Source: Sulfurimicrobium lacus (GTDB lineage: Bacteria; Pseudomonadota; Gammaproteobacteria; Burkholderiales; Sulfuricellaceae). From it: a stretch of 64,000 nucleotides of DNA. Position numbers and translations under genes: made by a program. How positions within the stretch are numbered: position 1 is the first letter of the stretch; every line of letters starts with the position of its first letter. Shown piece after piece: positions 30,253-63,173 of this stretch. The notes beneath the pieces are model-generated. The model had not been told where the DNA came from and did not search any database. It was given only the letters and a program-made list of their open reading frames with translations. The stretch is taken from NCBI RefSeq assembly GCF_011764585.1, contig NZ_AP022853.1, forward strand, positions 62,001 through 126,000, read 5' to 3'.

Positions 30253-30331
30253 GTGAGGAGTGAAGAGTGAGGAGTGAGGAGAAAGCGGCGGTGGGGGGGG
30301 TACTCCTCACTCCTCACTCCTCACCCCTCAC
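30253..30331. repeat. Short-period inverted repeat (GAGTGAG type) at the lipB start
   Basis: Two 29-base arms (30253-30281 and 30303-30331) made of the unit GTGAGGA in slightly varied copies pair with two mismatches, around a 21-base loop. The hairpin covers the end of the DUF493 intergenic space and the first codons of lipB. Confidence 0.85.
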
Positions 30332-30941
30332 TAGGCACTTAGGCCTTGTCGAATACCAACCGACCTTTGACGCCATGCAGGACTTCACGGCGCAACGAGG
30401 GCCTGCAACCCCGGACGAAATCTGGCTTTTGCAGCATCCGCCGGTTTACACCCTGGGCCTTGCCGGGAAGCCGGAACACCTGTTGCGCAGTAGCGACATC
30501 CCGGTGGTGAAGATCGACCGCGGCGGCCAGATCACTTACCACGGTCCGGGTCAGGTGGTGGCGTACATCCTGCTCGACCTCAAGCGGCACGGCATCGGCG
30601 TCAAGGAACTGGTGCGACGCATGGAACAGGCGGTGATCGACCTGCTGGCGACCCATGGCGTGGCGGCCGAGCGGCGCGACAAGGCGCCGGGCGTGTACGT
30701 GAACGAGGCCAAGATCGCCGCGCTGGGGTTGCGCATCCGAAACAATTGCAGCTACCACGGCCTGTGCCTGAATGTGGACATGGACCTTTCGCCTTACGCC
30801 AACATCAATCCCTGCGGCTACCCCGGGCTGGAAGTGACGCAAACCTGCGACCAAGGCGTGAGCGCCGATGCGGATACGCTGGCCGATGCGCTGGCGCGGC
30901 ATCTTCAGCAGCAGTTGGGATATACTCAACCCCTTATTTGA
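30267..30941 (+). CDS. lipB: Lipoyl(octanoyl) transferase
   Basis: The 224-residue enzyme moves octanoate from acyl carrier protein to target proteins. Signatures are [22 protein letters not shown], the lysine in [12 protein letters not shown] and the catalytic cysteine in [10 protein letters not shown]. The conserved region begins [16 protein letters not shown] at about residue 25. All in-frame start candidates before it (GTG at 30267, GTG at 30291) lie inside the inverted repeat, so about 23 N-terminal residues are repeat-derived. Its translation may be affected by the hairpin. Confidence 0.92.
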
Positions 30942-38076: not shown

Positions 38077-38126
38077 GTCATTACCGGTCGGTACTATAAT
38101 CAGCTTTTATCTTTTTGATCTGCCCT

Positions 38127-38663
38127 ATGGAACAATATCACGGCACCACCATTCTTTCCGTCCGCCGCGGCACTAGCGTCGCCATGGGCGGGGACGGCCA
38201 GGTCACGCTGGGCAACATCGTGGTCAAGGCCACGGCGCGCAAGGTGCGCCGCCTCTACCATGACAAAATCCTCGCCGGATTCGCCGGCGGAACGGCGGAC
38301 GCTTTCACGCTGTTCGAACGTTTCGAAGCCAAGCTGGAAAAGCATCAGGGCCACCTGCTGCGTTCCGCCGTGGAACTCGCCAAGGACTGGCGCACCGACC
38401 GCATGCTGCGCCGTCTCGAGGCCATGCTCACCGTTGCCGACCACGAATCCTCGCTGATCATCACCGGCAACGGCGACGTGCTGGAGCCGGAAGAAGGCCT
38501 GCTCGCCATCGGCAGCGGCGGTGCCTACGCCCAGTCCGCGGCACGCGCGCTGCTCGATCATACTGATCTGGCACCGGCCGACATCGTGAAGAAATCGCTC
38601 ACCATCGCCGCTGATCTGTGTATTTATACCAATCAGAATCACATCATCGAAGTGCTTGAATAA
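38127..38663 (+). CDS. hslV: ATP-dependent protease subunit HslV
   Basis: The product has 178 residues. The short propeptide MEQYHG is removed to expose T7 (TTILSVRRG), the catalytic threonine of this proteasome-like peptidase. Later motifs GDGQVTLGN and [16 protein letters not shown] are standard. A TATAAT lies at 38095-38100. It works with HslU, encoded after an 80-bp gap filled by a hairpin repeat. Confidence 0.97.
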
Positions 38664-38743: not shown

Positions 38744-40063
38744 ATGTCCGAAATGTCCCCCCAGGAAATCGTCCACGAACTCGACAAACACATCATCGGC
38801 CAGGACGCGGCCAAGCGTGCCGTCGCCATCGCGCTCCGCAACCGCTGGCGCCGCTCGCAGGTCGCCGACCCGTTGCGCCAGGAAATCACGCCCAAGAACA
38901 TTCTGATGATCGGCCCGACCGGTGTCGGCAAGACCGAAATCGCCCGTCGTCTGGCCAAGCTCGCCAATGCCCCGTTCATCAAGGTGGAAGCGACCAAATT
39001 CACCGAAGTCGGCTACGTCGGTCGCGACGTGGACTCGATCATCCGCGACCTGGTGGAAATTGCCATCAAACAGACGCGTGAGCAGGAAACGCGCAAAGTC
39101 CAGTTCCGTGCCGAGGAACACGCCGAAGAGCGCATTCTCGATGCATTGCTTCCGCCGGCACGCGATGGCGGCGATGTTGACAAGGAAGGCGCCACGCGGC
39201 AGAAATTCCGCAAAATGCTGCGCGAGGGACAACTGGACGACAAGGAAATCGAGATCGACGTCGCCACCCCTCAGGCGCATATGGAAATCTTCGCCCCGCC
39301 CGGCATGGAGGACCTTACTTCGCAGATCCAGGGCATGTTCCAGAACATGGGCACCACGCGCAGCAAAACCCGCAAGCTCAGGATTCGCGAAGCGATGAAG
39401 CTGCTGAGCGAGGAGGAAGCGCTCAAGCTGGTCAACGACGAGGAGCTTAAAATCGCAGCGGTGCATAACGCGGAACAGAACGGCATCGTGTTCCTCGACG
39501 AGATCGACAAGATCACCAGCCGTTCGGAGAGCTCCGGCGCCGAAGTGTCGCGCCAGGGCGTGCAGCGCGACCTGCTACCGCTGGTAGAAGGCACCACCGT
39601 CACCACCAAGTACGGCATGGTCAAGACCGACCACATCCTGTTCATCTGCAGCGGCGCGTTCCACCTCGCCAAGCCCTCCGACCTCGTGCCCGAGCTGCAG
39701 GGGCGGCTGCCCATCCGCGTCGAACTCACCAGCCTGAGCGTGAGCGATTTCGAACAAATCCTCACCAGTACCGATGCCTGTCTTACCCGGCAGTATCAGG
39801 CGCTGCTCGAAACGGAAGGCGTCAAGCTCGAATTCAGTGTGGATGCCGTGCGCCGCCTGGCCGAAATCGCTTTTGAGGTGAATGAGCGCACTGAAAATAT
39901 CGGTGCGCGCCGCCTGCACACGGTGATGGAAAAGCTGCTCGAAGAAATTTCCTATGACGCCGCGCGGCACAGCGGCAAGACCGTTTCCATTGACGCCGGC
40001 TACGTGGACAGCCGGCTCAAGGAGCTGGCGCAGAGCGAGGATCTGGCGCGCTACGTGCTCTGA
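38744..40063 (+). CDS. hslU: ATP-dependent protease ATPase subunit HslU
   Basis: A 439-residue AAA+ unfoldase starting [20 protein letters not shown], with Walker [10 protein letters not shown], Walker [12 protein letters not shown], an intermediate I-domain rich in charged residues, and the C-terminal ARYVL tail that activates HslV. No ribosome site is obvious apart from the repeat-derived CTGAAGGCTGA just upstream. Confidence 0.97.
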
Positions 40064-40096
40064 GCCGCACGAAGGCGCAGGCTAGAAAAACTTGCA

Positions 40097-40145
40097 AACT
40101 CCTTTCGTCTAGTTGATAATCATTCTCAACTAGACGAAAGGAGTT
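40097..40145 (+). promoter_or_regulatory. Fur-box palindrome overlapping the ribosome site of an outer-membrane gene
   Basis: Two perfectly complementary 20-base arms (40097-40116, 40126-40145) flank TAATCATTC. The centre, GATAATCATTCTC, matches the Fur consensus in 6-1-6 form with one change. The right arm contains AAAGGAG, the ribosome site of the gene at 40152, so the hairpin could also hide it. Confidence 0.7.
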
Positions 40146-40151
40146 ACTGTA

Positions 40152-40928
40152 ATGAAATTTTTACCGCTTGCTTGTGGCTTGCTCGCCACCGTGACTTTTA
40201 CCTTAGGCAGTACGACCGTACTGGCTGCGCCGGACGAGATCCAGGTTTATACCGAGGAAATGGACGATCCGAGGGAGTTTGGCCTCGAGTTGCATGTCAA
40301 TTACGCTATCACCGGCGCCAAGGAGCCTTCTTATGAGGGGGAGATGCCCGGCCACCATATGCTGCAGATGACGCCGGAGTTTTCCTACGGCATCACCAAA
40401 TCGTGGGAAGCCGGCTTGTACCTTCCCTTTGCACTCAACCCGGACGGCAATCTCTACAACAACGGGCTGCGGCTGCGCATGAAATACATGGCGCCACGGG
40501 ATGACGGCGCAAGACTGTTCTGGGGGCTGAACACCGAAGTGGGATATTCGACGCGGCGCGTTTCGGAGAGTTACTGGGGCATGGAATTGCGCCCCATCAT
40601 TGGCTATCGGGACGAGGCCTGGCTGTTGAGTTTCAACCCGATACTGAACCTGAGCCTGTCTGACAACGTCAGCCGTGCACCCCAGTTCGAGCCGGCGCTG
40701 AAAATCACGCACGCCGCGGGCGAAGGCATTCAGGCCGGTTTCGAGTATTACGGCGAGTATGGCCCGCTGCACCAGATCCTGCCTGCGGACCAGCGCAGCC
40801 ACTCGCTGTACGCCGTGATGGATGTTGCCAGGGGGGATCTGGACGTCAATTTCGGCGTTGGCCGGGGCTTCGGCGCGAACCCCGACAAATGGGTGGCGAA
40901 GGCGATCATCGCATTTCCATTCAAATAG
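40152..40928 (+). CDS. Putative iron-regulated outer-membrane beta-barrel protein
   Basis: This 258-residue product has a signal peptide (LGSTTVLAA) and a series of aromatic-ended strands ending KAIIAFPFK, the usual barrel terminus. No specific family name is recognised. It resembles copper- or iron-associated small barrels, but the ligand is unknown. AAAGGAG precedes the ATG and the Fur-type palindrome lies directly upstream, pointing to derepression in low iron. It converges with waaA, 17 bp away. Confidence 0.7.
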   Translation: MKFLPLACGLLATVTFTLGSTTVLAAPDEIQVYTEEMDDPREFGLELHVNYAITGAKEPSYEGEMPGHHMLQMTPEFSYGITKSWEAGLYLPFALNPDGNLYNNGLRLRMKYMAPRDDGARLFWGLNTEVGYSTRRVSESYWGMELRPIIGYRDEAWLLSFNPILNLSLSDNVSRAPQFEPALKITHAAGEGIQAGFEYYGEYGPLHQILPADQRSHSLYAVMDVARGDLDVNFGVGRGFGANPDKWVAKAIIAFPFK

Positions 40929-40945: not shown

Positions 40946-42214
40946 TTAATGTGATGGTGGCAGCAATCCTTGCAGTAAAGCCATCACGCGCCCGGTTGCC
41001 CCTTGATGCCGGCACGTGAACTCCAGCCCGGCCTGACCCATGCGCTGGCGCAACTCGGCGCTCTCCAGTAATTTCTGCAACGCCCGCGCCAACTCGGCTT
41101 CATCCGCGACCCGCAGCGCAGCACCTGCCTCCACCGCGCGTTCGGCCGCATCGGCAAAGTTGAAGGTATGCCTGCCGAGGAGCGCCGGTTTACCCACGCT
41201 GCAGGCTTCAATCAGGTTTTGGCCGCCGAACGGCAACAGGCTGCCGCCGATGAACGCCACATCGCAGGCGGCGTAGTAGGCGAACATTTCTCCCATGCTG
41301 TCGCCCAGCACGACTTGCGTCTCCACAGCGATGGCCTGCCGCGCGCTGCGCCGCTGATAACGCAGGCCGCGCCGTTCCAGCAGTTGCGCAACTTCGTCGA
41401 AGCGCTGCGGGTGACGGGGAACGATAACGGTCAGTAGTCCCGGGACGGTCAAGCCGCCCAATGCGTCGAGAATGCGCTCCTCCTCGCCATCACGGGTGCT
41501 TGCGGCGAGAAACACCTTCCGATCCGGGCCGAAGCCCTGGCGCAAGCTGCGGCCGAGCGTCAAAGCCGCATCGGGTGGAGCAATGTCGTATTTGAGGTTG
41601 CCCATCACAACAACATCCTGCGCTCCCAGGGCGGTCAGGCGCTGGGCGTCTTCCGCGGTCTGCGCCGCAACAGCGGTAAGCTGGCGCAAGCTGGCTTGAA
41701 TGAGACCGCCGAAGCGCGCATAGCGGCGCGCCGATTTCTGCGACAGGCGCGCGTTCACCAGGCACAGCGGCACCTCTGCGTCGTGGCAGGCTTGCACCAG
41801 GTTGGGCCAGATCTCGGTTTCCAGTAGCACGCCGAGTTGCGGCCTGAAGTGTGCAAGGAAACGCCGCACCGCGAAAGGGTAATCGTAAGGCAAGTAGCAG
41901 CGCAACACATCGGTTCCGAACAGCTGCTCCCCCGCCTCGCGCCCCGTGGGCGTCATGTGGGTCAGGAGGATTTGATGCGTCGGGTAACTGGCCTGCAGGG
42001 CTTTGATCAGCGGCGCTGCGGCGCGGGTTTCACCCACTGAAACGGTATGCAGCCAGATAACCGGGCGCATGGAACGGGTCGCATAGCGTCCGAAGCGTTC
42101 GTCCCAGTGCTGCAGGTATTCAGGCTGGCGCCGTGCGCGCCACAGCAGGTGAAAAACCACATAGGGGAGCAGCAGATACAGTAGCGCCGCGTAAAGCCAG
42201 CGTCGCCAATTCAT
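40946..42214 (-). CDS. waaA: 3-deoxy-D-manno-octulosonic acid (Kdo) transferase
   Basis: A 422-residue GT-B glycosyltransferase with an N-terminal membrane anchor (LYLLLPYVVFHLLWR), WLHTVSVGET, LLETEIWPNL, FLAASTRDGEEE and FIGGSLLPFGGQNLIEA, all typical of WaaA. It adds Kdo to lipid A precursor. It overlaps waaC by 4 bp, which is transcribed first. Confidence 0.95.
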   Translation of the reverse strand: MNWRRWLYAALLYLLLPYVVFHLLWRARRQPEYLQHWDERFGRYATRSMRPVIWLHTVSVGETRAAAPLIKALQASYPTHQILLTHMTPTGREAGEQLFGTDVLRCYLPYDYPFAVRRFLAHFRPQLGVLLETEIWPNLVQACHDAEVPLCLVNARLSQKSARRYARFGGLIQASLRQLTAVAAQTAEDAQRLTALGAQDVVVMGNLKYDIAPPDAALTLGRSLRQGFGPDRKVFLAASTRDGEEERILDALGGLTVPGLLTVIVPRHPQRFDEVAQLLERRGLRYQRRSARQAIAVETQVVLGDSMGEMFAYYAACDVAFIGGSLLPFGGQNLIEACSVGKPALLGRHTFNFADAAERAVEAGAALRVADEAELARALQKLLESAELRQRMGQAGLEFTCRHQGATGRVMALLQGLLPPSH

Positions 42215-45057: not shown

Positions 45058-45372
45058 TCAAAACCCGCTGAACAGGAAATCCAGCGCCGCAATAATCTCA
45101 TCTCGCCGATGCGCCAACGACAGCACCTTGTCGCCAAGCAAGCGTGAAGGCACACCAGCCAGTTCGGCCGTGGACATCACAAGCGCGATGCCCTCGACTT
45201 CGACATGCGGATTCAGGTGTTTTGCGGCCTTGCCCATCTCGCCCGTCTTCACTAATGGGATAACGACCCGAGTGGAAAGAGGTTCCAGCATGTCCGACTG
45301 GACATCCAGCAGATACGGGGTTATTTCGCAGGAAGCTGGATTGGCGTTTCGGTAAACATCGAACCGCGCCAT
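45058..45372 (-). CDS. ccdB: CcdB-type toxin
   Basis: A toxin of 104 residues starting MARFDVYRNAN, with PYLLDVQSDML, VVIPLV and the C-terminal IIAALDFLFSGF. CcdB poisons DNA gyrase; the three C-terminal residues and the tryptophan region mediate this in plasmid F (the last residues differ here). Its start overlaps the antitoxin stop. Confidence 0.9.
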   Translation of the reverse strand: MARFDVYRNANPASCEITPYLLDVQSDMLEPLSTRVVIPLVKTGEMGKAAKHLNPHVEVEGIALVMSTAELAGVPSRLLGDKVLSLAHRRDEIIAALDFLFSGF

Positions 45373-45620
45373 CAGAAAGTCCGCAGTCCTTCACTGAACA
45401 CGCCATTGCGATCGATGCGCTGGTTATACGCGTCGATTGCCGCGCGATTCTCTTCCAGCCAGTTTTTTTGCAAAGACTCTCGCAGATGTTCTACCAGACG
45501 TTGTTCCAGCAATTGCGACAAATTGAGGTTGAGTGCCTTTGCCTGCCGTAACAAGCTCTCATTAATGCTCAAGTTGACAGATTTCTTTTTCGCCGCTGAA
45601 TTGTAAAAGTCCTTATGCAT
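45372..45620 (-). CDS. ccdA: CcdA-type antitoxin
   Basis: Encodes 82 residues with a ribbon-helix-helix N-terminus (KKKSVNLSINESLLRQAKALNLNLSQLLE) and a toxin-binding C-terminus with NWLEENRAAIDAYNQRIDRNGVFSEGLRTF. It represses its operon with CcdB; the palindrome just upstream is the likely operator. Confidence 0.92.
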   Translation of the reverse strand: MHKDFYNSAAKKKSVNLSINESLLRQAKALNLNLSQLLEQRLVEHLRESLQKNWLEENRAAIDAYNQRIDRNGVFSEGLRTF

Positions 45621-45629
45621 GAAGAATTC

Positions 45630-45676
45630 CTTTGGTCATACAATGCGCATTATATATGCGCATTGTATGACCAAAG
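45630..45676. promoter_or_regulatory. Perfect 20-bp-arm palindrome, likely ccdAB operator
   Basis: Arms 45630-45649 and 45657-45676 are exactly complementary, around TTATATA. It starts 9 bp before the ccdA ATG. AT-rich centre plus GCGCAT sub-repeats suit a ribbon-helix-helix operator covering the promoter. Confidence 0.7.
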
Positions 45677-50333: not shown

Positions 50334-50343
50334 GTTTTTTTAG

Positions 50344-50412
50344 CCACAGAGTTCACAGAGAACACAGGGGCACACAAAGATCGCGTCTCTGTGCTCTCTG
50401 TGTTCTCTGTGG
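50344..50412. repeat. Short-period inverted repeat (CACAGAG type) between ahcY and metF
   Basis: CCACAGAG/AACACAG units at 50344-50369 are mirrored by CTCTGTG/CTCTGTGG units at 50387-50412, about 26 bp each, with few mismatches. It fills the 85-bp gap ahead of metF. Confidence 0.8.
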
Positions 50413-50418
50413 CAAACA

Positions 50419-59237: not shown

Positions 59238-59251
59238 TTAAAAAAACAGTT

Positions 59252-59314
59252 AACCACGGAGAACACGGAGAAAGCCTATGTTTTTCCTCCGTGTTCTCCG
59301 TGTTTTCCGTGGTT
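59252..59314. repeat. Short-period inverted repeat (CACGGAGAA type) between regulator and kinase
   Basis: AACCACGGAGAACACGGAGAA (59252-59272, 21 bases) is mirrored at 59294-59314 with one mismatch. The same sequence recurs at 60695-60767 beyond the kinase gene. Confidence 0.9.
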
Positions 59315-59332
59315 CAAAAGGTTTTTAAAATC

Positions 59333-60694: not shown

Positions 60695-60767
60695 TTAACC
60701 ACGGAGAACACGGAAAAAGCAAAGAGCCGTGGATTTCCTTCCGTGTTCTCCGTGTTTTCCGTGGTTA
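60695..60767. repeat. Short-period inverted repeat (CACGGAGAA type), second copy
   Basis: TTAACCACGGAGAACACGGA at about 60695-60717 is mirrored at 60745-60767 with two mismatches. The right arm contains the stop codon of the convergent Lon-like gene. Same family as 59252-59314. Confidence 0.88.
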
Positions 60768-63173
60768 ATTGCCTTTCCCAGACGTCTTTCCCTTTTTGCG
60801 CTCCTGCGCGGCCTTGGCCAGCGCCTGGCGCAATTTCAGCAGGGCGGCGATGCGCCCGTCCACTTTGGCGTTCACTTCCTGGGCCGCGATGCCGGTCAGC
60901 AGCTCCAGCGCCTCGTCCACCTGCGCGACCGGGTAGACATGGAAGCGTCCTTCAGCCACTGCCTGCACCACGTCCTGGCGCAGCATCAGGTGCTGGACGT
61001 TGGCGGCGGGAATCACCACGCCCTGCTCGCCGTTCAGTCCGCGGGCGCGACAGATGTCGAAGAAGCCCTCGATTTTCTCGTTCACCGCGCCGATCGCCTG
61101 CACCTGCCCGAACTGGTTGATCGACCCGGTCACCGCCATGGACTGCCTGACCGGCACTTCCGCCAGGCTGGAGAGCAGGGCGCAGAGCTCCGCCACCGAC
61201 GCGCTGTCGCCTTCCACCCCGCCGTAGGACTGCTCGAACACCAGGCTGGCGGCCAGCGGCAACGGTCGGTTCTTGGCGTAGCGCGAGGCGAGGTAGGCCG
61301 ACAGGATCAGCACGCCCTTGGAATGGATCGCGCCGGAGAGCTTGGCTTCGCGCTCGATGTTGAGCAGTTCGCCCTCGCCCAGGCGGGTCGTGGCGGTAAC
61401 GCGCGAAGGCTGGGCGAAGGCGGCGTTGCCGAGGTCGATGACGGACAGGGCGTTGACCTGCCCCACCCTGGCGCCGCTGCTGTCGATCAGCACGGTGCCG
61501 CGCAGGATTTCCTCCTGCACCCGCTCCTTGAGGCGGCTGGCGCGCAGCAGCTGGGTGTCGATGGCGTACTGGACGTCGGCCATGGCCACTGCCTCGCGCC
61601 CTTCCTTGCGTGCCCAGTAATCGGCTTCGCGCAGCAGGTCGGCGACCGACTGCAGGTGGGCGGAAAGCTTGTGGGCCTCGCCCGCCAGCCGTGCGCTGTG
61701 TTCGATCACCCGCGCCACGGCGGCGGGGTCGAAAGGCAGCAGCTTTTCCTTGCGGGCGACGGTGCCGATCAGGCGGGCGTAGAGCAGGTCCGATTCGCCG
61801 TTGCGCTCGAAACGGTCGTCGAAGTCGGCTTCCACCTTGAACAGCTCGGCGAATTCGGGGTCGTAGGCGTACAGCAGGTAGTAGAGGATGCGCTCGCCGA
61901 ACAGCACGACCTTGACATCCAGCGGCACCGGCTCAGGCTCCAGCGATACGGTGCTGACCAGGCTGAGTATCTGCGCCAGCGATTCGATGCGGATTTCGCG
62001 CGCGTGCAAAACGCGTTTCAACCCCTCCCAGGCATAAAGCTGGGTCAGCAGCTTGCGGGCGTCGAGCAACAGGTAGCCGCCGTTGGCGCGGTGCAGCGAC
62101 CCCGGCTTGATCAGGGTGAAATCGGTGACCAGGTTGCCGAACTGGGCCAGGTGCTCCACCCGCCCGATCAGGTTGTGGTGCATCGGGCTGTCCTCGTACA
62201 CTACCGGAGCGCCCTGCGACGCGGTGTGGTCGACCAGCACGTTGATGCCGTAACGGCGGAAATGGGGGCCGTCGTTGCCGCTCTGTCCCTCCTCGGTGCG
62301 CCTGAAATCCCCCACGTTTTCGATCACATCCTGCTGCACCGCGTCGAAATAGGTCATCACGGCGGGGATGAGCAGGAACGGCAGCCGGGCTTCGTCCACC
62401 AGGTGTTCCACGGCGAACATGGTGATCAGGCGGTTGAGGTGCTTGAGCTTTTCACGCGCTTCGCGCTTCCACTGCGGGATGTCGTGGCGCAGGATTTTTT
62501 CCAGCTGGGCCTGCAGTTCGCCAATGGTCGCCTCGATGCGCGCCTTTTCCTGTTCGTCGAGCTTGTCGTATTCTTCCGGCTTGATCACCTCGCCGTCTTT
62601 CAGCGGCCCGAAGCCGAAGCCGTTCTGCGAGCGCAGCAGGGCGATGCCGCGCAGGTTGGCATCCTCGCCCAGCGACTTGACGGCATCTTCTTCCCGCGCG
62701 GTGAAGGATTCCTGGATTTCCTCCGTCTTGGCGCGGTATTCCTCGCTCTCGAACGCCGCCGCGATGGTGGCGCGCAGCTCTTCCACCAGCAGCTCCATGG
62801 AACGGTGCAGCCTGACCGCCATGCCGGCCGGAAGCAGCAGGGCGCGCGGCTTGTGCGGCTGTTCGAAGTTGTTGACGTAGCACAGGTCGGCGGGAACCGG
62901 CTCCTTGCCCGCCTTGTTTTCGAGGAACTGGGTAACGAAGGTGTGCTTGCCGGTACCGTACGGCCCCATGACGAAAAGGTTGTAGCCCTCGCGCTGGATG
63001 TCGCTGCCGAAACGGATGGCGTTGAGCGCCCGCGTCTGGCCGATGATTTCGGCGAGATCTTCGAGTTCGGCGGTGGTGGCGAAGGCAAACTGCCCCGGAT
63101 CGCAGCGGCGGTAGAGTTGTTCCGGGGTGAGGGACGGAATGGTGGACACGGTATTCCTCGCTTTATTCTTCAT
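60765..63173 (-). CDS. Lon-like ATP-dependent protease
   Basis: An 802-residue member of the Lon-related group lacking the canonical Lon N-domain. N-terminal ATPase motif GPYGTGKHTF, a coiled-coil-rich insert, then the serine-lysine protease domain with S657 (EGDSAS) and K700 (NEKIEGF), 43 residues apart as in E. coli Lon. A variant Walker A (GTGKHT) is present. Substrates are unknown. It converges with the kinase operon. Confidence 0.92.
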   Translation of the reverse strand: MKNKARNTVSTIPSLTPEQLYRRCDPGQFAFATTAELEDLAEIIGQTRALNAIRFGSDIQREGYNLFVMGPYGTGKHTFVTQFLENKAGKEPVPADLCYVNNFEQPHKPRALLLPAGMAVRLHRSMELLVEELRATIAAAFESEEYRAKTEEIQESFTAREEDAVKSLGEDANLRGIALLRSQNGFGFGPLKDGEVIKPEEYDKLDEQEKARIEATIGELQAQLEKILRHDIPQWKREAREKLKHLNRLITMFAVEHLVDEARLPFLLIPAVMTYFDAVQQDVIENVGDFRRTEEGQSGNDGPHFRRYGINVLVDHTASQGAPVVYEDSPMHHNLIGRVEHLAQFGNLVTDFTLIKPGSLHRANGGYLLLDARKLLTQLYAWEGLKRVLHAREIRIESLAQILSLVSTVSLEPEPVPLDVKVVLFGERILYYLLYAYDPEFAELFKVEADFDDRFERNGESDLLYARLIGTVARKEKLLPFDPAAVARVIEHSARLAGEAHKLSAHLQSVADLLREADYWARKEGREAVAMADVQYAIDTQLLRASRLKERVQEEILRGTVLIDSSGARVGQVNALSVIDLGNAAFAQPSRVTATTRLGEGELLNIEREAKLSGAIHSKGVLILSAYLASRYAKNRPLPLAASLVFEQSYGGVEGDSASVAELCALLSSLAEVPVRQSMAVTGSINQFGQVQAIGAVNEKIEGFFDICRARGLNGEQGVVIPAANVQHLMLRQDVVQAVAEGRFHVYPVAQVDEALELLTGIAAQEVNAKVDGRIAALLKLRQALAKAAQERKKGKTSGKGN

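Follow-up and report, generated by a model that had tools for sequence, protein, structure and literature searches.

Transcription leaks from gene to gene in dense bacterial genomes, and the silence of tightly repressed genes is rarely examined; the insertion sequence IS10 is guarded against outside transcription. For IS200, another such insertion sequence, a structure is described that occludes the ribosome site of the transposase, beside a terminator for impinging transcripts (PMC3196728). In phage T4, the promoter of gene e (lysozyme) occupies the DNA that encodes the 5' strand of an inhibitory hairpin, and the long transcripts yield about 100-fold less protein (PMC3014915); in this leader and in the related soc and I-TevI leaders, transcripts initiated upstream fold and hide the Shine-Dalgarno sequence. 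The 5'-UTR of S. aureus sigH carries a perfect inverted repeat covering the ribosome site, which lowers translation (PMC3486894). In a classical Fur-repressed promoter, the Fur box lies over the -10 element and the start region.

The locus described here shares the layout of T4 gene e, with a predicted promoter (40092-40120) within the DNA of the hairpin's 5' strand (left arm, 40097-40116) and a start site predicted from it, and it resembles IS200 in the predicted occlusion of a ribosome site by structure. The T4 genes belong to a phage and are under temporal control by a late promoter, whereas the gene considered here is chromosomal and its promoter carries a Fur box, which would tie insulation to iron. 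Unlike the guards of insertion sequences, this region has no transposase or element ends, and what appears to be protected is an ordinary regulated gene; unlike sigH, in which the whole repeat is described in the 5' UTR, the promoter sits inside the repeat. The placement of the Fur box is classical, whereas no ribosome-site masking was seen at the other Fur promoters examined in these genomes. Our reading, to which we give a probability of about 0.68, is that a Fur-repressed promoter is embedded in a hairpin that silences read-through RNA and thereby insulates a gene for an outer-membrane beta-barrel protein. If true, repressor site, promoter and RNA lock are written in the same bases of a cellular gene, a logic that has been documented in phage T4 and is akin to the guards of certain insertion sequences. 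A search of the open-access literature for a precedent combining Fur control with read-through found no fitting paper; as we read it, the locus is a variation on a known arrangement, in which a promoter-in-hairpin insulator serves an iron-regulated gene of the chromosome and is built anew from other sequence in related bacteria.

The palindrome and the promoter within it

In the window (the whole stretch of 64,000 nucleotides that was analysed), the arms AACTCCTTTCGTCTAGTTGA (left, 40097-40116, + strand) and TCAACTAGACGAAAGGAGTT (right, 40126-40145, + strand) are exact reverse complements over 20 bases each, with a 9-nt centre between them. The earlier note had described a perfect 49-base palindrome, which holds for the arms and slightly overstates the whole, 23 of 24 positions matching when it is counted as 24-nt arms with 1 nt between. 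The ribosome site had been assigned to the right arm, and AAAGGAG is indeed present there (40137-40143, + strand), 8 nt before the ATG at 40152. The judgement that such a palindrome is unlikely by chance is borne out by shuffling and simulation: an arm at three or fewer mismatches appeared in 0 of 100 shuffles of the window, and Markov-simulated 64-kb sequences contain ~1.7 inverted repeats with perfect arms of at least 11 bases, a count that drops about four-fold per extra arm base, so that 20-base arms lie far outside chance. The palindrome is real, its chance origin is excluded, and the sequence evidence indicates that it is probably functional. Its predicted RNA fold has an energy of -30.7 kcal/mol (z = -10.8). 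When the 3.83-Mb genome was searched with the palindrome DNA, the sole other match was a weak 18-base one (E 0.6) at another Fur box, and a repeat or mobile element was rejected, there being no further copies in the genome and one locus apart from that weak match. An intrinsic terminator was also rejected, as the right arm is followed by ACTGTAATG with no T-run and the terminator scan does not report the palindrome. Rfam returned no family at gathering score and only sub-threshold matches to miRNA models.

Inside the left arm and the centre lies a predicted sigma70-type promoter, TTGCAA-17-GATAAT (40092-40120), the only promoter-like site found within 39600-40600. Its -35 element TTGCAA occupies 40092-40097 and its -10 element GATAAT, a consensus match kept in orthologs, 40115-40120, both on the + strand; just upstream of the -35 element, an A-tract (40086-40090, + strand) may serve as an UP-like element, and A-tracts occur near the same place in L007, L008, L009, L024 and L034. 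The Fur box TGATAATCATTCTCA (7-1-7; 40114-40128, + strand) overlaps the -10 element and the predicted start site. That a Fur box lies inside the palindrome, as had been claimed, agrees with its match to the 7-1-7 consensus TGATAATNATTNTCA with 0 mismatches, a pattern which occurs without mismatch at two places in the 3.83-Mb genome, TGATAATCATTCTCA included. The Fur box and the TTGC-17-GATAAT promoter are kept in nine upstream regions of the same family, and in orthologs a Fur-like core stands at the same promoter position and retains its overlap with the promoter elements. TTGC is found at identical spacing in 9 of 9 family upstream regions as well as in L011 and L034, and TTGC and GATAAT of the orthologs keep the same 17-nt spacing, with the bases between them varying (~1.5 bits of information per TTGC position vs no more than 0.8 at the 12 outer positions of the spacer).

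Transcription is predicted to start at 40127 (+ strand), ~7 nt after the -10 element, and moving this start 3 nt either way kept the results. Since the promoter lies within the palindrome, the gene's own mRNA should begin near 40127 without the left arm, its leader of ~25 nt consisting mostly of the right arm; the left arm (the anti-Shine-Dalgarno strand) lies mostly in the -35/-10 spacer and would therefore be transcribed only by read-through from upstream. In the predicted folds, the Shine-Dalgarno sequence is paired in read-through RNA and free in RNA from the gene's own promoter, with ribosome-site opening energies of 18.5 kcal/mol in the former vs 4.5 in RNA from the predicted start. The earlier note's idea of one element acting twice is thus retained for the Fur box on DNA and for predicted masking on RNA, and it is given up for the gene's own mRNA, which should begin within the palindrome and is therefore unlikely to contain the hairpin. 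Such an internal start had been regarded as fatal to the idea; the start is predicted inside, and the comparative data rescue a version in which the masked RNA is the read-through transcript.

The gene behind the palindrome (40152-40928, + strand), putatively under Fur control, encodes a 258-aa protein with a signal peptide for which no Pfam or NCBIfam family was found above cut-off. The protein is predicted to form an outer-membrane beta-barrel (mean pLDDT 77.6), with a fold nearest the FapF, OmpG, NanC and COG4313 channels. The family is conserved, again without a Pfam entry at cut-off; of 399 genomes sampled from the order, 48 carry it, in one or two copies each. Upstream and co-directional (+ strand) are hslV (proteasome-like peptidase, 38115-38663) and hslU (AAA+ ATPase, 38744-40063), the latter being the presumed source of read-through, with its stop codon (40063) 33 nt from the left arm and no + strand terminator-like site found between this stop and the palindrome. 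The convergent downstream gene is waaA (Kdo transferase, 40946-42214, - strand).

The start site, Fur binding, read-through and the translational effect, each of which we infer from sequence, would combine into the following mechanism. Under iron scarcity, Fur would leave and RNA polymerase would start near 40127, producing a short mRNA that lacks the left arm and would be freely translated. When iron is plentiful, Fur would block the promoter, and read-through transcripts from hslVU that cross the barrel gene would carry both arms and fold into a hairpin of about -30 kcal/mol that hides the ribosome site. The hairpin would in this way insulate the Fur-controlled gene from read-through.

Re-created pairing and neighbour orientation

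The comparison between species covered sixteen upstream regions with a Fur-like box; Sulfuricella and Sulfurimicrobium species were the nearest relatives found. Within the family, the arm sequences are wholly different and unrelated, yet they pair with each other in most of its nine upstream regions (CAGTTAATTG with CAATTAACTG in L004, CAATCCATT with AATGGATTG in L008, and CGACCTGTT with AACAGGTCG in L009); the pairing between the arms is broken in L007. The outer arms of the orthologs have no common motif and are not fixed in place with respect to the Fur box. Within the compared regions, the longest perfect stem between spacer and leader reaches 19 at the locus in the window, 10 in L004, and 9 in L006, L008/L022 and L009, whose sequences are unrelated. 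No long stem is present in L005 or L024 (4-5 bp), each of which is weak on its own, and the masking of L024 is equalled by 23-45% of shuffled left arms. The left arm of L008 lies within the last codons of a glycerate kinase gene, so that translating ribosomes would open it part-time.

This pairing was evaluated against controls that re-pair the arms among relatives, so that shared inherited sequence cannot produce the signal. When left arms were swapped, no more than 1 of the 14-15 substitutes equalled the native masking in any of the family's nine upstream regions. By opening energy, the native pairing is the best of 5040 permutations of seven family representatives, the best of 720 without the locus in the window, and it again ranks first of 5040 when six family members are combined with L010; no pairing signal was seen for six more distant loci in the same permutation (p = 0.83). 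Contiguous stem length is likewise greater for own than for swapped pairing (p = 0.0001; 0.0015 without the locus in the window), these p-values and those for opening energy being somewhat optimistic because both statistics were chosen after seeing the data, following the weaker statistic of RNAduplex energy alone (p 0.03 over all, 0.33 without the locus in the window).

The orientation of the upstream neighbour provides a further line of evidence, as masking is present in 11 of 12 loci with a co-directional upstream gene, and at all 4 loci whose neighbour is divergent the masking barely exceeds that of the own mRNA, if it does so at all. This difference, noticed after the folds had been computed, gave Mann-Whitney p values of 0.0005-0.007 over 18 settings that varied the start site, the upstream length and the analysis window, across ~11 independent contexts (seven co-directional, four divergent) of which the divergent ones are also the more distant relatives. 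The co-directional upstream genes of the family and L010 are unrelated and encode HslU, a 114-aa protein, a DUF3426 protein, glycerate kinase, a 2-hydroxyacid dehydrogenase and P-II; the divergent neighbours are Dus and FeoA (by Pfam) as well as a ferredoxin-reductase-like gene and Maf (named from sequence). Little masking is seen in L028, co-directional behind a MenD-like gene, and L027, also behind a MenD-like gene, masks through the Fur core, which the swap test cannot credit. At L034, the ortholog of the barrel gene is divergent from the FeoA gene across a Fur-like box, a neighbourhood that suggests a role for the barrel gene in iron uptake.

Masking as a general property of Fur boxes was rejected, since the other Fur promoters checked in nine genomes showed no masking clearly above that of shuffled left arms. 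Among the Fur promoters seen in that comparison was L077 (G013:C1:320843-320857, - strand), which precedes a 120-aa gene; its tandem Fur boxes are enclosed by long inverted arms (AATTCATTGCAATTGATAA), and its ribosome site lies outside them.

Competing explanations

A palindrome centred on a Fur box could be an element of DNA alone, namely an extended operator, bound by Fur or by a second regulator, with an incidental RNA hairpin, and the tandem boxes of L077, set in long inverted arms off the ribosome site, would fit such an operator. A protein site should conserve its sequence, and so the outer arms, which lack a common motif and vary in position yet pair within each genome, count against it; other Fur promoters in the same genomes are also mostly without arms, and we regard this explanation as unlikely. 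Quite unlikely, in our assessment, is a hairpin that belongs to a regular mRNA from an upstream promoter and acts as a switch in addition to control by Fur, whether as thermosensor, riboswitch or lock opened by an sRNA. In its favour are the high stability of the hairpin, its coverage of the ribosome site and the precedent of masking hairpins in regular 5' leaders, such as the 13-bp repeat of S. aureus sigH (PMC3486894). Against it, the promoter elements within the palindrome keep a fixed spacing, from which the start is predicted to lie beyond the left arm; relatives differ freely in the sequence of the arms, the length of the stem and the size of the loop and show no conserved sensor; and no Rfam family reaches its gathering score.

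The link to neighbour orientation also bears on whether the hairpin serves the upstream gene, stabilising the 3' end of hslVU and its counterparts at other loci or terminating their transcription, since its position directly behind co-directional genes and its absence next to divergent neighbours would fit such a role. The lack of a T-run, the silence of the terminator scan, the need for unrelated upstream genes all to require such a hairpin, and a placement that follows the downstream promoter and ribosome site make this very improbable, although the hairpin may be of side benefit to the upstream gene. We see the slimmest chance in the proposal that the exact 20-bp arms are largely a mutational product, a weaker inverted repeat having been made perfect by template switching, and add little function to that of the Fur site. 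The arms are far more perfect than those of any ortholog, and the window contains another two inverted repeats whose arms, of 17 and 21 bp, are perfect; however, independent stems of different sequence are present in several other lineages, and template switching may account for the perfection of the stem, not for its presence.

If the hairpin insulates the barrel gene from read-through, it might represent a general and hitherto unrecognised class of promoter-in-hairpin insulators in bacterial chromosomes, in which a regulated promoter also supplies the anti-Shine-Dalgarno strand and selection rebuilds the pairing behind co-directional neighbours and drops it otherwise, an extension that we put forward tentatively and at less than even odds. 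Ordinary motif or covariance searches would miss this arrangement because the arms have no common sequence; the footprint to seek is that pairing of the leader with the promoter spacer is re-created and goes with the orientation of the neighbour, a pattern that is testable genome-wide.

Other inverted repeats in the window

A second perfect palindrome, with 21-bp arms, was observed at 45630-45676 (- strand), with TATAAT on the - strand at its centre. It stands directly before a gene for an 82-aa CcdA antitoxin-like protein (45372-45620), which is followed by a CcdB-like gene (45058-45372), both named by reading the sequence. The distal arm of this palindrome takes in AAAGG of the ribosome site, giving the same promoter-in-hairpin layout, and the palindrome is perhaps just an autoregulatory operator. 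Inverted repeats at 59238-59328, 60695-60768 and 50340-50416 consist of (T)TAACCACGGAGAACACGGAGAA-like units and are perhaps a dispersed repeat family, and the inverted repeat at 30253-30332 is built from GTGAGGAGTGA-type units.
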